Assembly: GCA_028687335.1 (NCBI GenBank)
Contig: JAQUAI010000001.1
Span: forward strand, 62,001 to 126,000
Length of the DNA stretch: 64,000 nt
Direction: 5' to 3'
Origin: Gallionella sp.
Lineage (GTDB): Bacteria; Pseudomonadota; Gammaproteobacteria; Burkholderiales; Gallionellaceae
Shown piece by piece: positions 47,193 through 58,198 of the stretch (its first letter is position 1; each line of letters starts with the position of its first letter). A model generated the notes under the pieces. It was given only the letters and a program-made list of their open reading frames with translations, was not told the DNA's origin and did no database searches. The translations under genes and the position numbers were made by a program.

Positions 47193-48941
47193 ATGCGTTG
47201 GCTGAAGCGGACTATTCTGGCGGTGATAACTTTGTTGGTGCTGGTCATGGCATTGATCTTCATTACGCCGCTGGATACATATATACCGGAAATTGAGCGC
47301 CGCGTCGGTGCGCAAATACAAGAGCCAGTGCGGGTAGGGGCTGTGCAGCTGGGTTTGTTTCCACTTCCTCATCTGGACTTGAAGAATGTGCGCGTCGGAC
47401 GCACGCCCAGTTTGCAGGCGGACGAGGTGGAAATCGAGTTGTCGCTCGTCGCGTTGATGAGTGGTGAGTTGGTGTTGCATCGGGTTTCAGTGTCGGGTGG
47501 TGTTGTTTATTTGCATGAGTTACAACTTTGGCTGGCCCGATTTATTTCTTTCCCGCATACCCAGTCGATACGGTTCACGGAGTTTCAGTTTCGCGGTGTG
47601 ACGTTAATGATCAAAGGCGTTGCTTTGGATAGGCTGGAGGGGAAGGTTGAGCTGGATGAGCGCGGCCAATTGCGACGAATATGGTTGGCAGCGGATGAGC
47701 AAAAGCTGGTGGTGAGCGCTGTTCCTGTTGCGACGAAGGTGGATGTGCAACACCTGCCAGTGCTGGCATTTGAGGTGCATGGAAAAAATTGGCAGCCACC
47801 CTTGATGACGGACTTACCGCTCATGGAGCATGTGGAGGCCAGTGGTGTGCTCGATGGGAATAAGGTTGATGTTCGTTTATTCAATTTATCCACGTCATCG
47901 GCACATGCGACAGGCAGTGCTTTACTCGATTTTGCAATGCCTTGGCGGGTGAGTGCCGAATTAAAAGAGAGTGAGATTTCGTTGCCGCCAATATTGGCAA
48001 TGCTGAATTACCCCGCCACTTCACGTGGCACCTTTCAGGCGCGCGGTGCGGTTCAGAGTGAGGGGGCATCTTTGGATGAGATGCAAAAAAACCTTCGCTT
48101 TAACGGGCGGTTTGCATTGCGTCAGGCGGAAGTTAATCTGGTGAAAGAAACAGGGAAGCCGTTTGTCATTGACGCACTTGATGCTCAGCTCGGTATGGAT
48201 GAGGCAGTGGTATCGCTAAGCGACATTCATACCCGTCTTTATGACGGGCAGGCATCGGGAAAGTTAATGTTAGATCGGGCCACGCTTGGGCTGAGCGTGC
48301 AAGGCGTTGTGAAAAATGTGAATTTGCAACCTTTGATTGCCTCGCTGTCGAGCGAGGTGTTGTTGTCTGGACGAGCAGATGCACAAACGGAATTTCGCTT
48401 GCAGTTGCGAGACTTCGAAAAGTTTCCGGCAAATGTTCGGCTACAGGCTGATTTCCAAATGCGTAACGGCGTATTGCAGAAGGTGGACCTTGAGCAGGTT
48501 GCTAAAAATCCTGCGCAGTCTTACGCAAGTCAGGGGGCGACCAAGTTTGATCAATTAAACGGGCGAGTTCAGGTTGACGGTAATGGTTATCACTTTCGTC
48601 AAATCGCTCTAGCTTCCGGCTCGTTGAATGCGGAGGGGCGCTTGGATGTTTCGCCTAATATGGCATTGAAAGGCATGCTTGATGCCGATGTAAAAGGTAC
48701 TGCGGGTTTGGTTAGTATGCCTATGGTGATTAGCGGAACGTTAGATAAGCCGAGTGTCAGTCCCAGCGGTACGGCCTTGGCCGGCGCGGCGGTTGGGACG
48801 GCGATGCTGGGGCCAGGGTTGGGCACGGCACTGGGTGTCAAGATCGGCGGATTTCTGCACAAACTATTTGGCAGCGATGATGCGCCCGCGAATAAAAAAG
48901 CGATGCATCCGAAGCAAAGTGAAAAACCATCTAAGCCGTGA
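47193..48941 (+). CDS. AsmA-like family protein
   Basis: N-terminal TM 'TILAVITLLVLVMALIFITPLDTYIPEIERRVGAQIQEPVRVGAVQLGLFPLPHLDLKNVRVG', C-terminal AsmA-type repeats. Confidence 0.88.
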   Translation: MRWLKRTILAVITLLVLVMALIFITPLDTYIPEIERRVGAQIQEPVRVGAVQLGLFPLPHLDLKNVRVGRTPSLQADEVEIELSLVALMSGELVLHRVSVSGGVVYLHELQLWLARFISFPHTQSIRFTEFQFRGVTLMIKGVALDRLEGKVELDERGQLRRIWLAADEQKLVVSAVPVATKVDVQHLPVLAFEVHGKNWQPPLMTDLPLMEHVEASGVLDGNKVDVRLFNLSTSSAHATGSALLDFAMPWRVSAELKESEISLPPILAMLNYPATSRGTFQARGAVQSEGASLDEMQKNLRFNGRFALRQAEVNLVKETGKPFVIDALDAQLGMDEAVVSLSDIHTRLYDGQASGKLMLDRATLGLSVQGVVKNVNLQPLIASLSSEVLLSGRADAQTEFRLQLRDFEKFPANVRLQADFQMRNGVLQKVDLEQVAKNPAQSYASQGATKFDQLNGRVQVDGNGYHFRQIALASGSLNAEGRLDVSPNMALKGMLDADVKGTAGLVSMPMVISGTLDKPSVSPSGTALAGAAVGTAMLGPGLGTALGVKIGGFLHKLFGSDDAPANKKAMHPKQSEKPSKP

Positions 48942-48975: not shown

Positions 48976-51900
48976 ATGGACACAAAAGCCGTATTTATCA
49001 GAACGCCGAAAGGTGAAGACGAAGCTCGCAATCGCACATCGCTGCTTTCTGGCGATATTAAGCGCGCGTTACTAATGGTCGACGGTACCGCCACGGCGGG
49101 CGAGATCAGCAAGCGTGCCGCGCCCAGCTTACGTCAGGTATTGGATGAGATGGTCGACGAGTTACAACGCGCCGGTTTCATACAAGATAAGGCCAAAGCC
49201 GCCAATATTCCCAAGATGGTTGTGCCGCAACGCCCACCCGCCACACTAAAAAAACCAGCTGAAGACAGCGGCGAAGAGCTTGATTTTACTGCCGCCTATA
49301 AAGCACCTACTGCCGAAGTTTTAGCCGCCGAAGCGGCTCGGCTTGCAGCTGAAAAATCACAGGCAGAAGCGGTAGCTAAAGCCAAAGTGGAAGCTGAGGC
49401 AGCAGCCAAACTTAAAGCTGAGGCAGAGCAAGCGCGACAAAAGGCGGCGGATGAAGCCAAAGCTCGCGAAGCCGCTGAAAAACAAGCACGGGCAGAAGCC
49501 GATGCAGCACGATTAAAAGCCGAGCAAGAGTCTGCACGCGTGAAAGCTGAGTTGGTCGCAGCCAAAGCTAAAGCCGAGGTGGAAGCGCAAGCGGCTCGCC
49601 GTCAAGCAGAAGAGGAAGCAGCTCGCGCCAAAGTCGAAGCCGAACAAGTCCGACAAAAAGCAGCAGAAGCGAGCGCTCGCGAAGAAGCCGAGAAACAGGC
49701 GCGCGCACAAGCCGAAGCTGAGCGCCGTAAAGCCGAAGAGGAAGTTGCGCGCGCGCGCGCCGAACTGGAGGCGGCGAAAGCCAAAGCCGAGGCGGAGACA
49801 CGCGCACGTGAAGCAGCCGAAAAGAAAGCACGTGAAGAAGCTGATATTGCGCGTCGCAAGGCCGAGGAAGAAGCGCAAGTTGCTCGCCGTCAAGCGGAGG
49901 AAGAGGCTGCAAAAGTGAAGGCAGCAGCAGACGCAGCGAGAGTTCAAGCTGAGGCCGAGGCGCACGCACGCGAAGAAGCAGAAAAGAAAGCACGCGAAGA
50001 AGCAGAAGTTGCACGTCGCAAGGCAGAAGAAGAGGTGCAAGCTGCCCGCCGTAAAGCCGAAGAAGAGGTGGCTCAGGCAAAGGCTGAGGCGGAGGCGGCA
50101 CGCCGCAAAGCGGAGCAAGAAGCTGAAGAGGCACGTCGCCGAGCTGAAGAGGCCGCAGCACAAGCTAAAGCTGAGGCGGAGGCTGCCAAAGCCAAGGCTG
50201 AGACCGAGGCGCGCGCAAGGGCGGAAGCCGAAAGGCTAGCGCGCGAAGAGGCTGAGTCTGCACGTCGTAAGGCGGAAGAGGAAGCCGCTGATTTGCGGAG
50301 AAAGGCTGAGGAAGCCGCAGCGCAAGCCAAGGCTGAAGCCGAGGCGGCGCGCCGCAAAGCCGAAGAGGAAACGGCCAAAGCCAAAGCTGAGGCGGAAGAA
50401 GCTAAGCGTGCCGCTGAAGCCGCTGCGGCGCAGGCCAAAGTGGAGGCTGAGGAAGCGCGTCGCAATGCGGAGCAGGCTGCTGCACAGGCGAAAGCGGAAG
50501 CGGAAGAGGCTAAGCGGAAAGCCGAAGCAGAGGCGCAGGCCCGTGAGGAAGTTGAGAAAAAAGCGCGTGCCGAAGCTGAGGCGGCGCGTCATCAGGCAGA
50601 GCAAGAGGCGGCTCGCGTGCGAGCCGAGCTAGAGGAAGCCAAAGCACATGCCGCAGCTGAAGCACGCGCACGTGATGAAGTTGAGCAGAAATCTCGCGCC
50701 GAGGCGGAGGCTTTGCGCCTCAAGACTTTGCAGGAATTCGAAGCGTTGCAGCAGGCCACACGGGATTCTGAGGTGCAGTCCCAATCCCAAGCCGCTGATG
50801 AGCAGATCATGCAAGATGCGGCGGATGCCGCGCTGCTAAGTTCAATTGCCAGCTTTACCCAAACCAGTATTGATGATCATGCACATAAGACACACGATGC
50901 CGATAGCGCATCGCGTTCAACCAGTGCCACAGTCTTGTTTTTCGATGTGGTTGGCTATACAAAAAAATCTGTCAAAAAACAAATTGCGCTGAAGAAGCAA
51001 TTCAATCAGTTGGTGTCCGATATTCTTGCGGCAGTTGGGCAGGGTGAACGCCTGATTCTGGATACCGGCGATGGCGCAGCGATTGGATTTTTGGATCATC
51101 CCGAAGATGCACTGGAAACCGCGCGTCAGTTCCGTGACCGTGTAACGGCTAACGATCATGCCGAATTTCCCGATATGAATGTGCGTATTGGTATTCATCT
51201 TGGGCCGATCAATGTTGTTAAAGACATGAACGGTCAAAGCAATATGGTCGGCGACGGCATCAATGATGCGCAGCGTGTGATGAGTTTTTCGGGTACCGAC
51301 CAAATTTACGTTTCGCGTCCGTATTTTGATTTTGTTTCTCGGCTTAGTGACGATTATGCCGACTTGTTTGAGTATCGAGGTTCGCAAAAAGACAAACATG
51401 GACGCCCCCATCAGGTCTACGAATTATTGGGGGCAGCACCCAAGACGAGCCAAACTCCTTCCACATTTTCGGTCGATAATGCGGCGGCAGCGGTCAGCTT
51501 GGATCCCTTCACTTTTGCGTTGCCCGAAGAGGTGCCCGTAGCAGTCGCTGTAGTAGAACCTGCGGTTGACGATGCTGTCGCTACTGATGAGGCAAAGCTG
51601 TTGAAAGAGGTTGGGCAAGTGATGCAGGAAACGGCCAAGCCTGTTGAGGATTCGCCCACCAAGAAACAAGCGGTTAAAGAAGTGGCTAAAGCGCACATGC
51701 CCTCGGAAGATGAGGTGGCAAAACTGGCGGAAGAGCAGGCTTTGGCTTGGGCGCGGGCAGAGCAGCGTGCTTTGGAGTCTGCGCGCCATGAAACCGTCGA
51801 GCAGCAGGCGGTAGTAGCCAAACAAAGTCAGCCGCAATCAACACCTACGATACCGGTTGCTGCACGACGCAAACCGTTGCCTATCGGAAAAATAGTTGCG

Positions 51901-53070
51901 GGTGCTCTGGTGGTATTCATCTTGGCACTATTTATCGCGCCGCTGGTGATGCCTATGCAGCATTACGGCAAACAAATCGAAGCTGCCTTGGCTGACAAAC
52001 TTCAACAGCCGGTCAAGATCGGTAGTGTGAGCGGGCGCTTATTGCCGACACCGCGTTTAGATTTGTCCGATGTAAGTATTGGTAAAGAGCAAAAAATTAA
52101 AATTGAGCATGCTCGGCTCGATTTTGCTTTCTCAGCTTTATTCTCCGACGATAAGCGCGTCAAAGGTATTCAACTAGATGGCTGGCAGGTAAGCGGTACA
52201 TCGTTGCTGGATGCGCTGGCGTGGTTCAAGCAAAGCGTTGCTGATCCGGCCAATCCGATTGGTGTGGTTGCGCTATCGGGCGGCTCAGTTAATAACGAAG
52301 GACTGGCAATCAACGATGTTGCAGGCACTGTCACCTTTGATAAATCGGCAGCTTTTGGTGGTGCAAAGCTAACTGCTGAAGGGGGGCGTTATCAGTTGGA
52401 CATCGGTGGGGCCCAAGCCGAGCAATACCCGCTGGCCGTGACGATGCGCAGCGGTGCATTACCGTTGTTACCGGCTTGGTCATTCGACGACTTTTCGGCA
52501 AAGGGAGTGATTGCCGCCGATGGCTTGGTGTTGAGTGAAATCGACGGACGCATCTTGGGCGGTATGCTGAACGGCGATGCAAAAGTAACTTGGGGTTCCG
52601 GCTGGCAAGTTAAGGTGACATTGATCGGCAAAACACTGACGTTGGCGAATTTGAATTCTGTATTGAGTGGTGATGCGGATGCCACTTTGCACCTTACTTC
52701 ACAGGCAGCCAAGTTGGTTGATTTGCCCAGCAAGGCGCGCATGGATGGCACGTTTGAAATTAAAGCTGGTGTGCTTACTGGGGCGGATATGGTGGAGACT
52801 GCACGTTTGCGTAGCCGCGATCCTCAGCCTGGTGGGCGCACACATTTTGATACGGTAACGGGGCAAATCAGCTATAACGACAATCAGTATCGTTTGCGTC
52901 AAATCAGGTTGTCTGCGGGGGTATTGAAGGCAACAGGCGAAGTGGATATTGCGCCGCCGCAAGTGAGCGGACGCATCTCAGCTGATCTGAGTGCTTTGGC
53001 TGGGTTGGGCAATGTTCCGCTGATTTTGGGCGGAACAACACAAAGCCTGTCTTTGCGCGCCGCGCGATAA
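48976..53070 (+). CDS. 1364-aa multidomain protein: N-terminal small domain - Ala/Glu/Lys coiled coil - class III adenylate/guanylate cyclase - TM - AsmA-like domain
   Basis: Coiled coil about 49.3-50.8 kb ('RKAEEEVAQAKAEAEAARRKAEQEAEEARRRAEE...'); cyclase about 50.9-51.43 kb ('VLFFDVVGYTKKS...LILDTGDGAAIGF...MVGDGINDAQRVMSFSG...'); TM 'IVAGALVVFILALFIAPLVM' about 51.9 kb; AsmA-like region to the C-terminus. Confidence 0.88.
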   Translation: MDTKAVFIRTPKGEDEARNRTSLLSGDIKRALLMVDGTATAGEISKRAAPSLRQVLDEMVDELQRAGFIQDKAKAANIPKMVVPQRPPATLKKPAEDSGEELDFTAAYKAPTAEVLAAEAARLAAEKSQAEAVAKAKVEAEAAAKLKAEAEQARQKAADEAKAREAAEKQARAEADAARLKAEQESARVKAELVAAKAKAEVEAQAARRQAEEEAARAKVEAEQVRQKAAEASAREEAEKQARAQAEAERRKAEEEVARARAELEAAKAKAEAETRAREAAEKKAREEADIARRKAEEEAQVARRQAEEEAAKVKAAADAARVQAEAEAHAREEAEKKAREEAEVARRKAEEEVQAARRKAEEEVAQAKAEAEAARRKAEQEAEEARRRAEEAAAQAKAEAEAAKAKAETEARARAEAERLAREEAESARRKAEEEAADLRRKAEEAAAQAKAEAEAARRKAEEETAKAKAEAEEAKRAAEAAAAQAKVEAEEARRNAEQAAAQAKAEAEEAKRKAEAEAQAREEVEKKARAEAEAARHQAEQEAARVRAELEEAKAHAAAEARARDEVEQKSRAEAEALRLKTLQEFEALQQATRDSEVQSQSQAADEQIMQDAADAALLSSIASFTQTSIDDHAHKTHDADSASRSTSATVLFFDVVGYTKKSVKKQIALKKQFNQLVSDILAAVGQGERLILDTGDGAAIGFLDHPEDALETARQFRDRVTANDHAEFPDMNVRIGIHLGPINVVKDMNGQSNMVGDGINDAQRVMSFSGTDQIYVSRPYFDFVSRLSDDYADLFEYRGSQKDKHGRPHQVYELLGAAPKTSQTPSTFSVDNAAAAVSLDPFTFALPEEVPVAVAVVEPAVDDAVATDEAKLLKEVGQVMQETAKPVEDSPTKKQAVKEVAKAHMPSEDEVAKLAEEQALAWARAEQRALESARHETVEQQAVVAKQSQPQSTPTIPVAARRKPLPIGKIVAGALVVFILALFIAPLVMPMQHYGKQIEAALADKLQQPVKIGSVSGRLLPTPRLDLSDVSIGKEQKIKIEHARLDFAFSALFSDDKRVKGIQLDGWQVSGTSLLDALAWFKQSVADPANPIGVVALSGGSVNNEGLAINDVAGTVTFDKSAAFGGAKLTAEGGRYQLDIGGAQAEQYPLAVTMRSGALPLLPAWSFDDFSAKGVIAADGLVLSEIDGRILGGMLNGDAKVTWGSGWQVKVTLIGKTLTLANLNSVLSGDADATLHLTSQAAKLVDLPSKARMDGTFEIKAGVLTGADMVETARLRSRDPQPGGRTHFDTVTGQISYNDNQYRLRQIRLSAGVLKATGEVDIAPPQVSGRISADLSALAGLGNVPLILGGTTQSLSLRAAR

Positions 53071-56290: not shown

Positions 56291-57034
56291 ATGACCATGC
56301 TTAAAATCGCCACCTACAATATCCACAAAGGATTTTCCCAGTTCAATCGTCGCGTTGTGTTGCATGAACTGCGCGAACAGGTGCGTGAGTTGGATGCGGA
56401 TATTCTGTTTTTGCAGGAGGTGCAGGGCGAACATACGCGGCATGTTTTGCGTCATCAAAACTATCCAGCGGTGGCGCAGCACGAATTTATTGCCGAGGAT
56501 GTCTGGCTGCACCATGCTTACGGTAAAAATTCGGAATATCGCTACGGACATCACGGCAATGCGGTCTTGAGCCGATTTCCAATTGCAGCAGTGAGTAATC
56601 GCGATGTTTCGGCCCATCGTTTTGAAAGTCGAGGCTTGCTGCACTGCGAGCTGGATGTCGCGGGCGGCAATATCCATTGTCTTTGCGTACACTTTGGTCT
56701 GTTTGCTAAGGGGCGCAAGCTGCAAACACGCGCTTTGATCGAATATGTGCAGAGTGAAATTCCCGCCGATGCACCGCTTATCATCGCCGGTGATTTCAAC
56801 GATTGGCGCAATGCACTGGGGCGGCTTTTATCCGCAGCACTCGATGTGCACGATGTGTTTCACACTCACACAGGCAAACCGGCGCGCAGTTTTCCCTCCC
56901 GTTTACCCTTGTTTAGCTTGGATCGTATCTATGTGCGCGGATTTCACGTCCAGCATGCAGTGGTACATGCGGGTGATGCATGGGGGCGGATGTCCGATCA
57001 TGCCGCTTTGTCGGTCCAACTCATTCCTCGCTAA
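56291..57034 (+). CDS. Endonuclease/exonuclease/phosphatase (EEP) family protein, YbhP-like
   Basis: 'LKIATYNIHKGFSQFNRR', 'ILFLQEVQGEH', 'IIAGDFNDWRNALG', 'WGRMSDHAALSVQL'. Confidence 0.92.
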   Translation: MTMLKIATYNIHKGFSQFNRRVVLHELREQVRELDADILFLQEVQGEHTRHVLRHQNYPAVAQHEFIAEDVWLHHAYGKNSEYRYGHHGNAVLSRFPIAAVSNRDVSAHRFESRGLLHCELDVAGGNIHCLCVHFGLFAKGRKLQTRALIEYVQSEIPADAPLIIAGDFNDWRNALGRLLSAALDVHDVFHTHTGKPARSFPSRLPLFSLDRIYVRGFHVQHAVVHAGDAWGRMSDHAALSVQLIPR

Positions 57035-58198
57035 GTGATGGCTACCGAACACCGCATCGACGGACACACACTGACACTGTTGAAGAATGGCACAGAGTTT
57101 TTTCCTGCCCTGTGTGCTGCGATTGATTCGGCACAGCTGACGGTGGCGCTAGAGACTTACATCTTTGCCGATGACGAAACCGGTCGCACGGTAGCGATGG
57201 CCTTGCAGCGCGCGGCGTTGCGTGGAGTGACAGTGAGGTTGCTGCTGGACGGATTTGGTTCGGCGGAACTATCGCCTAAGCGAATTGATGAGTTGCGCAT
57301 CGCGGGTGTTGAGGTGCAATGGTTTCGTCGTGAGCCAGCTTTTCTGTCTTTTCGGCGTAGCCGTTTGCGCCGCATGCACCGAAAAATTGCAGTGATAGAC
57401 AGCGAAATCGCGTTCATCGGTGGTATCAATATACTGGATGACATTCCGGCGGACGCGGCATTCGATATACCTCGTTTCGACTATGCCGTAAAAATGGAAG
57501 GCATGCTGGTTGCAAAGGTGAATGATGCTGTGCGTCATTTGTGGGGCGTGGTGTCGAGAGTAACTCAGGGGCGGCGCGTGCTCCGATTTTTACGTTACAT
57601 TTCTGGCACGCGGAAACGCGGTGCAACCAGACATCTGGCCTTTGTTGTGCGCGACAGTATTCGTCATCGCCGCGATATTGAGCGTGCTTACCTGCAAGCA
57701 ATTGGTAACGCACAGCAAGAAATTATTCTCGCCAATGCCTATTTTTTGCCTGGTCGGTCATTCCGCAAAGCACTCAAACTGGCAGCTGCGCGTGGGGTGC
57801 GAGTGGTGATGTTGTTGCAGGGTAGGGTTGAGTACTGGTTGCAACATCACGCCACGCGCGAGTTGTACGGTGAACTGTTGGCGGCTGGAGTTGAAATATA
57901 CGAATATCAGGCGAGTTTCCTTCACGCCAAAGTGGCGGTGATTGACAGCACGTGGGCGACGGTCGGCTCGTCCAATATTGATCCATTCAGCTTATTTCTG
58001 GCAAAAGAAGCCAATCTGGTGGTGCGTGATAGCGGTTTTGCCGAGCAATTACGCGATAGTTTACAAATGGAAATAGCGCAGCATGCAGTGCAAATTAAGC
58101 AGCTGCACGCTGGCATTGTCGCACGCGTGATGTCACGTATCAGTTATACGCTGATACGGTGGGTGATCGGGCTATTGGGTATTGCCCGGCGCAAGTGA
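57035..58198 (+). CDS. Phospholipase D-type cardiolipin synthase (ClsB-like)
   Basis: Two HKD-type motifs: 'RRMHRKIAVIDSEIAFIGGINI' and 'ASFLHAKVAVIDSTWATVGSSNIDPFS'. Confidence 0.93.
   Translation: MMATEHRIDGHTLTLLKNGTEFFPALCAAIDSAQLTVALETYIFADDETGRTVAMALQRAALRGVTVRLLLDGFGSAELSPKRIDELRIAGVEVQWFRREPAFLSFRRSRLRRMHRKIAVIDSEIAFIGGINILDDIPADAAFDIPRFDYAVKMEGMLVAKVNDAVRHLWGVVSRVTQGRRVLRFLRYISGTRKRGATRHLAFVVRDSIRHRRDIERAYLQAIGNAQQEIILANAYFLPGRSFRKALKLAAARGVRVVMLLQGRVEYWLQHHATRELYGELLAAGVEIYEYQASFLHAKVAVIDSTWATVGSSNIDPFSLFLAKEANLVVRDSGFAEQLRDSLQMEIAQHAVQIKQLHAGIVARVMSRISYTLIRWVIGLLGIARRK

Follow-up and report, generated by a model that had tools for sequence, protein, structure and literature searches.

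The analysed window comprised 64,000 nucleotides from Gallionella sp. (assembly GCA_028687335.1, contig JAQUAI010000001.1, positions 62,001 to 126,000; Burkholderiales, Gallionellaceae). It contains, at positions 48976..53070 of the plus strand, a single open reading frame running from ATG to stop over 1364 codons with no internal stop. The encoded protein combines an N-terminal domain, a long helix, a class III nucleotide cyclase, a transmembrane (TM) helix and an AsmA-like domain, and this fusion is the subject of the present analysis. A preliminary description of the window, made from its letters and translations, had announced an uninterrupted frame joining a coiled coil, a cyclase, a TM helix and an AsmA-like region; both the frame and the order of its parts were borne out. 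An assembly error or frameshift that fused separate genes was refuted by the orthologues, the same architecture being encountered in dozens of independent assemblies of Gallionella/Ferrigenium and other Nitrosomonadales. Within the genus, a cyclase was found inside a large frame (715-1725 amino acids, aa) in 49 of the 76 genomes. The three outcomes named beforehand as contrary to the proposal did not occur: AsmA profiles matched, both metal-binding aspartates were present and the fusion recurred.

The class III cyclase domain (residues 648-817; 50917..51426, plus strand like all features of the gene) matched PF00211 above cut-off when searched as a fragment (28.3 bits, cut-off 21.9), and 29 of the 30 members of the family alignment matched it at E<=0.001. 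Its sequence matches in the PDB were class III cyclases, and the predicted fold resembled those of Rv1900c, Ma1120, RhoGC and CyaB, with TM-scores to the target of up to ~0.8. The candidate catalytic residues of the preliminary description were all retained: the first (Asp657, 50944..50946) and second (Asp699, 51070..51072) metal-binding aspartates and the transition-state pair Asn763 and Arg767 (51262..51276) were invariant in 25 orthologues. The base-selecting positions were likewise invariant and non-canonical. Leu695 (51058..51060) occupies the Lys/Glu position and aligned to RhoGC E497(K) and Ma1120 K101, while Asn756 (51241..51243) occupies the Asp/Cys position and aligned to RhoGC C566(D) and Ma1120 D157; K101 and D157 are the ATP-specifying residues of Ma1120 studied in PMC4215837. 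All 25 aligned fusion proteins displayed Leu/Asn in place of the Lys/Asp selectors of ATP or the Glu/Cys selectors of GTP, residues which define the specificity of class III cyclases and not membership of the class. The substrate can therefore not be assigned, and whether the product is cyclic AMP (cAMP), cyclic GMP (cGMP) or another cyclic nucleotide monophosphate (cNMP) is not readable from the sequence. Atypical selectors can go together with activity, as M. tuberculosis Rv0386 and Rv1900c illustrate.

A pyrimidine (Pycsar-like) or other non-purine cyclase, acting in defence or stress signalling on an AsmA scaffold, would agree with selectors of non-purine type and with a match to the PADLOC PycC model. 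That match was weak (21 bits), as expected of any class III cyclase, and a comparison by eye did not obviously reveal the UTP-selecting residues reported for PycC clades B and D (PMC11224242). Among the annotated neighbours no Pycsar effector gene was noticed, no search aimed at effectors having been made, and a role of this kind is considered improbable. The genome as a whole held seven PF00211 matches and 12 matches to cNMP-binding domains, ten of them above cut-off, which makes cyclic-nucleotide signalling plausible in this organism. One of its cyclases is a stand-alone paralogue of the fused domain (G000:C17:64458-64976; L007, L036) in a frame of 457 aa. It shares the Leu/Asn selectors and, as read by eye, has one TM-like segment and ends in a PEGA-like tail. 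Almost every genome of the genus carried this paralogue, and it occurred elsewhere in the order as well.

The C-terminal part starts with a single TM helix (residues 970-991; 51883..51948), indicated by hydropathy and by the AlphaFold model and lying in the only hydrophobic segment of the protein (around 966-997). The ARRK preceding it marks the cytoplasmic side. Directly behind follows the AsmA-like domain (residues 1013-1362; 52012..53061), predicted to be periplasmic and modelled as beta-rich with pLDDT (predicted local distance difference test) values mostly above 80. When the C-terminal 410 residues were searched alone, PF05170 was matched above cut-off (32.9 bits, cut-off 29.8), which upheld the AsmA-like region of the preliminary description; the scan of the whole protein listed no AsmA match. 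AsmA was matched at E<=0.001 by 29 of the 30 alignment members. Profiles of YhdP and DUF748 remained below cut-off against the window protein (31.7 versus 46 and 25.5 versus 50 bits), and GspN of type II secretion, also considered, was rejected for the same reason. With ~350 residues, the domain is much shorter than YhdP or TamB. A cytoplasmic cyclase and a periplasmic AsmA domain, as proposed earlier, stand as a prediction.

The N-terminal domain (residues 1-75; 48976..49200) was conserved in the alignment and modelled at a pLDDT of 79. Its fold matches, which included PqqD/RRE-type and MarR winged helix-turn-helix domains, were weak and none was significant, so that the designation winged-helix-like is kept cautious. 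No Pfam family matched this domain in the window protein, and matches to HxlR and other helix-turn-helix families in further members were sub-threshold. Assignment to a named family was dropped for want of a Pfam match in the window protein and of significance in the fold search.

Next comes the long charged helix (residues 112-600; 49309..50775), recognized by composition, periodicity and charge pairing. Its 489 residues comprised 36% Ala, 24% Glu, 12% Arg and 10% Lys (82% together) and neither Gly nor Pro. Hydrophobic periodicity peaked at 3.59-3.62 (heptad 3.5, hendecad 3.67), and 88 K/R-to-E (i,i+4) pairs were counted, against 27 upon shuffling and only two pairs of like charge. Of the ~500-residue coiled coil proposed initially, length and composition were borne out; as for its nature, the period of ~3.6 and the many (i,i+4) pairs are no less compatible with a single alpha-helix, and rather favour one. 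Such a helix would be ~73 nm long, at 0.15 nm per residue. It presumably resembles the long helices of TolA domain II and of the single alpha-helix (ER/K) proteins, likewise rich in Ala/Glu/Lys/Arg and devoid of Gly and Pro; here it is placed on the cytoplasmic side. Helix length ranged from 224 to 929 residues in the orthologues measured, and the 1725-aa orthologue at L043:4989-10163 displayed ~929 residues from N-terminal domain to cyclase. Recent expansion of a DNA repeat was ruled out as the origin of the helix, since the region contained just two short, low-copy tandem arrays.

The cyclase is joined loosely to its neighbours. A linker of ~45 residues, delimited from the sequence (50776..50910), separates helix and cyclase, and ~150 residues, largely disordered in the AlphaFold model, lie between cyclase and TM helix. 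Residues 821-908 (51436..51699) displayed pLDDT values below 50. They hold a short motif conserved in the alignment consensus, L-D/E-P-F-x-F-x-x-P-E, which is possibly a docking peptide. Related linker motifs persisted in some forms lacking the cyclase, such as KPDTFAFDAF in L172. Close to the membrane, residues 911-949 (51706..51822) form a conserved helix in the model.

These linkers bear on a classical transmembrane receptor cyclase, in which the AsmA domain would sense the envelope state and a conformational signal through the TM helix would switch the cyclase. The order of the parts suits the required topology (N-terminus in, C-terminus out, one TM helix), and cyclase and AsmA domain share one chain that is conserved in the genus. 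Against it stand the ~150 residues between cyclase and membrane, with neither a HAMP domain nor a continuous helix and with confidence below 50 over 821-908, and the ~45 residues by which the long helix is likewise set apart on the other side. Such a receptor is regarded as unlikely: with its disorder, the long linker speaks against rigid signalling across the membrane and in favour of a cyclase on a tether, regulated through clustering or proximity. Of the earlier picture, a cyclase tethered by a long coil to the AsmA module, the parts were kept, with linkers added on both sides of the cyclase. The coupling of envelope state to cAMP/cGMP which it suggested is still possible as a coupling, whereas the disordered linker speaks against direct allostery and the atypical selectors forbid naming cAMP or cGMP.

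The enzyme domain is not always part of the gene. In 16 of the 76 genus genomes the same gene displayed N-terminal and AsmA domains without a cyclase (824-1347 aa); of the remaining 11 genomes, each either lacks the gene or is incomplete. As indicated by a flanking aminotransferase gene and/or ccm genes, present in the stretch for 15 of the 16, nearly all of these cyclase-free genes demonstrably sit at the same locus as the fusion. A related genus within this family likewise has a cyclase-free form (L114, 1002 aa), located downstream of ccm genes. Across the order, the profile of the N-terminal domain matched large frames, some match being found in 43 of 100 genomes, and 21 of the loci read consisted of N-terminal and AsmA domains without a cyclase; in almost every one of these a long helix connects the two. 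The cyclase-free parent, composed of N-terminal domain, long helix, TM helix and AsmA domain, is therefore widespread in the order and in many of its families. Outside the order, matches of the N-terminal domain were on short frames (90-337 aa); L150-L152 and others across the class carried it on proteins of ~160 aa.

Fused cyclases were also found in two other lineages, namely L072/L134, from another betaproteobacterium, where the parts follow the same order as in the window, and family f37 (L136-L143). The f37 proteins are 720-747 aa long, with the cyclase right after the N-terminal domain, then a short helix, the TM helix and the AsmA domain. At L136 and L139, the two of these loci that were read, the fusion begins a few bases downstream of a gene resembling, by eye, a RelA/SpoT-type (p)ppGpp synthetase. 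One of the 49 cyclase-bearing genus genomes (G626, L182) displayed cyclase, TM helix and AsmA domain without the N-terminal domain and long helix, an AsmA gene lying directly upstream. A Gallionella-type fusion fragment on a contig labelled Elusimicrobia (L068) was probably mis-binned.

The tree of AsmA domains, obtained with a quick method, implied ten changes of cyclase state, at least eight of them forced by supported branches, and the hosts of the fused cyclase were not united in it. In a more careful tree of the cyclases, a branch (98/94) parted fused from stand-alone domains, with the long-branch L073 as the exception. Sister pairs differed by the module as a whole: L056, which has the cyclase, and L172, which lacks it, could be aligned over their full length apart from the cyclase, a neighbouring stretch of helix and a portion of the linker. 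The data are best explained by one origin followed by repeated loss; transfer of the cyclase cassette is possible. As far as sequences tell, the cyclase is an optional plug-in module, accessory to the protein and not its core function, because many orthologues of the same gene lack it.

Frequent loss would also be explained if the domain were a degenerate or moonlighting fold, retained for nucleotide binding or dimerization and making no standard cyclic nucleotide. The repeated absence of the cyclase from close relatives and the Leu/Asn pair at the base-selecting positions would agree with this. Invariance of the metal aspartates and of the Asn/Arg pair across 25 divergent fusions, together with the same motifs in the stand-alone relatives examined, argues for selection on catalysis. 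A degenerate fold is thus judged somewhat less likely than the receptor cyclase.

Immediately upstream, 34 bases before the start of the fusion gene and on the same strand, ends another AsmA-family gene (47193..48941, 582 aa; PF05170, 65 bits), probably its operon partner. Further upstream lie ccmG/ccmH/cycH-like genes (CcmH and CycH identified by Pfam, ccmG named from its sequence), separated from the upstream AsmA gene by an S4-domain gene on the opposite strand. Downstream, the minus strand carries an aminotransferase gene and a PilB/GspE-like type II/IV secretion ATPase gene. Farther along the window (56291-58198), an endonuclease/exonuclease/phosphatase-like gene is followed by a cardiolipin-synthase-like gene, both named from sequence. 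The fusion is an AsmA-type protein in addition to full-length AsmA, which the genome encodes elsewhere (749-aa frame).

Taken together, the favoured reading, to which we attach a probability of roughly 0.55, is a cyclase tethered to the membrane, held in position by a scaffold of the AsmA type and regulated through clustering or by local partners. The protein would be an accessory member of the AsmA family in the inner membrane, with its N-terminus in the cytoplasm, its C-terminal AsmA domain in the periplasm, a long cytoplasmic arm tipped by the small winged-helix-like domain, and the cyclase as an optional insertion between this arm and the membrane anchor. The AsmA domain may bind or sense lipid-like or other envelope ligands and may hold the protein where envelope transport takes place, perhaps together with the product of the upstream AsmA gene. 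Tethered cyclases would form head-to-tail dimers and make cyclic nucleotide when copies meet, so that output would track clustering or local concentration instead of a rigid transmembrane signal, and the product could act on the many cNMP-binding regulators of the genome.

Several observations weigh against this tethered, clustering-controlled cyclase. On its own, the short AsmA domain probably does not reach across the periplasm; the residues at the substrate positions are atypical; and control by proximity was deduced from the modelled disorder of the linkers alone. The upstream AsmA gene adjoined 14 of 27 cyclase-bearing and none of 15 cyclase-free family loci (Fisher p = 0.0005), but the association was unsupported once relatedness was counted: just two of seven independent pairs were concordant and none discordant, for which reason it is a lead only. 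A bolder version would amount to a new signalling principle: a cyclase that evolution attaches to an envelope (AsmA) protein and takes off again, whose Leu/Asn selector would yield something other than plain cAMP or cGMP, and through which clustering at sites of lipid transport would send out a cyclic-nucleotide signal. This version is speculative and ranks below the degenerate fold and above the Pycsar-like role.

All parts of the fusion are of known kinds. AsmA-like proteins (PF05170: AsmA, YhdP, TamB, YdbH, PA4735 and PA2708) share with the fusion a single TM helix, a beta-rich domain behind it that matches the AsmA profile, anchoring in the inner membrane and a predicted periplasmic location of that domain. 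They carry the TM helix N-terminally, whereas ~970 cytoplasmic residues (N-terminal domain, helix and cyclase) precede it in the fusion. The short AsmA part recalls PA2708 of P. aeruginosa, judged too short to span the periplasm (PMC10900882). With class III cyclases (PF00211; Rv1900c, Ma1120, RhoGC and P. aeruginosa CyaB) the fusion has the fold and the four catalytic residues in common, and differs by its Leu/Asn selectors and the long disordered linker to an AsmA domain. The nearest relatives of the fused cyclase are stand-alone betaproteobacterial 'LDTGDGAA' cyclases (~360-490 aa in the order, ~50% identity), which displayed the same selectors in those read and lack the long helix and the AsmA domain. 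The cyclase-free proteins of Burkholderiales-type bacteria (L114-L133, L165-L180), with N-terminal domain, long helix, TM helix and AsmA domain, represent the same gene, at the same locus within the genus, and differ by the missing cyclase. Nothing relevant on a protein combining AsmA and cyclase was found in the open-licence literature, in line with the preliminary description, which knew of no characterized protein of this architecture; nor was a description of the parent family or of the on/off module encountered there.

AsmA-like proteins were recently tied to the transport of glycerophospholipids to the outer membrane (PMC8593681, PMC10900882). A natural cyclase fusion may bear both on how AsmA-linked lipid transport may be regulated and on how it may be reported to the cell. 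Together with sister genomes whose copy of the gene lacks the enzyme, it offers a ready comparison for a link between envelope and second messenger, and the atypical base-selector pair of this cyclase group is directly assayable. In the iron-oxidising Gallionella-type bacteria, a conserved gene would thus tie an envelope protein to second-messenger signalling.

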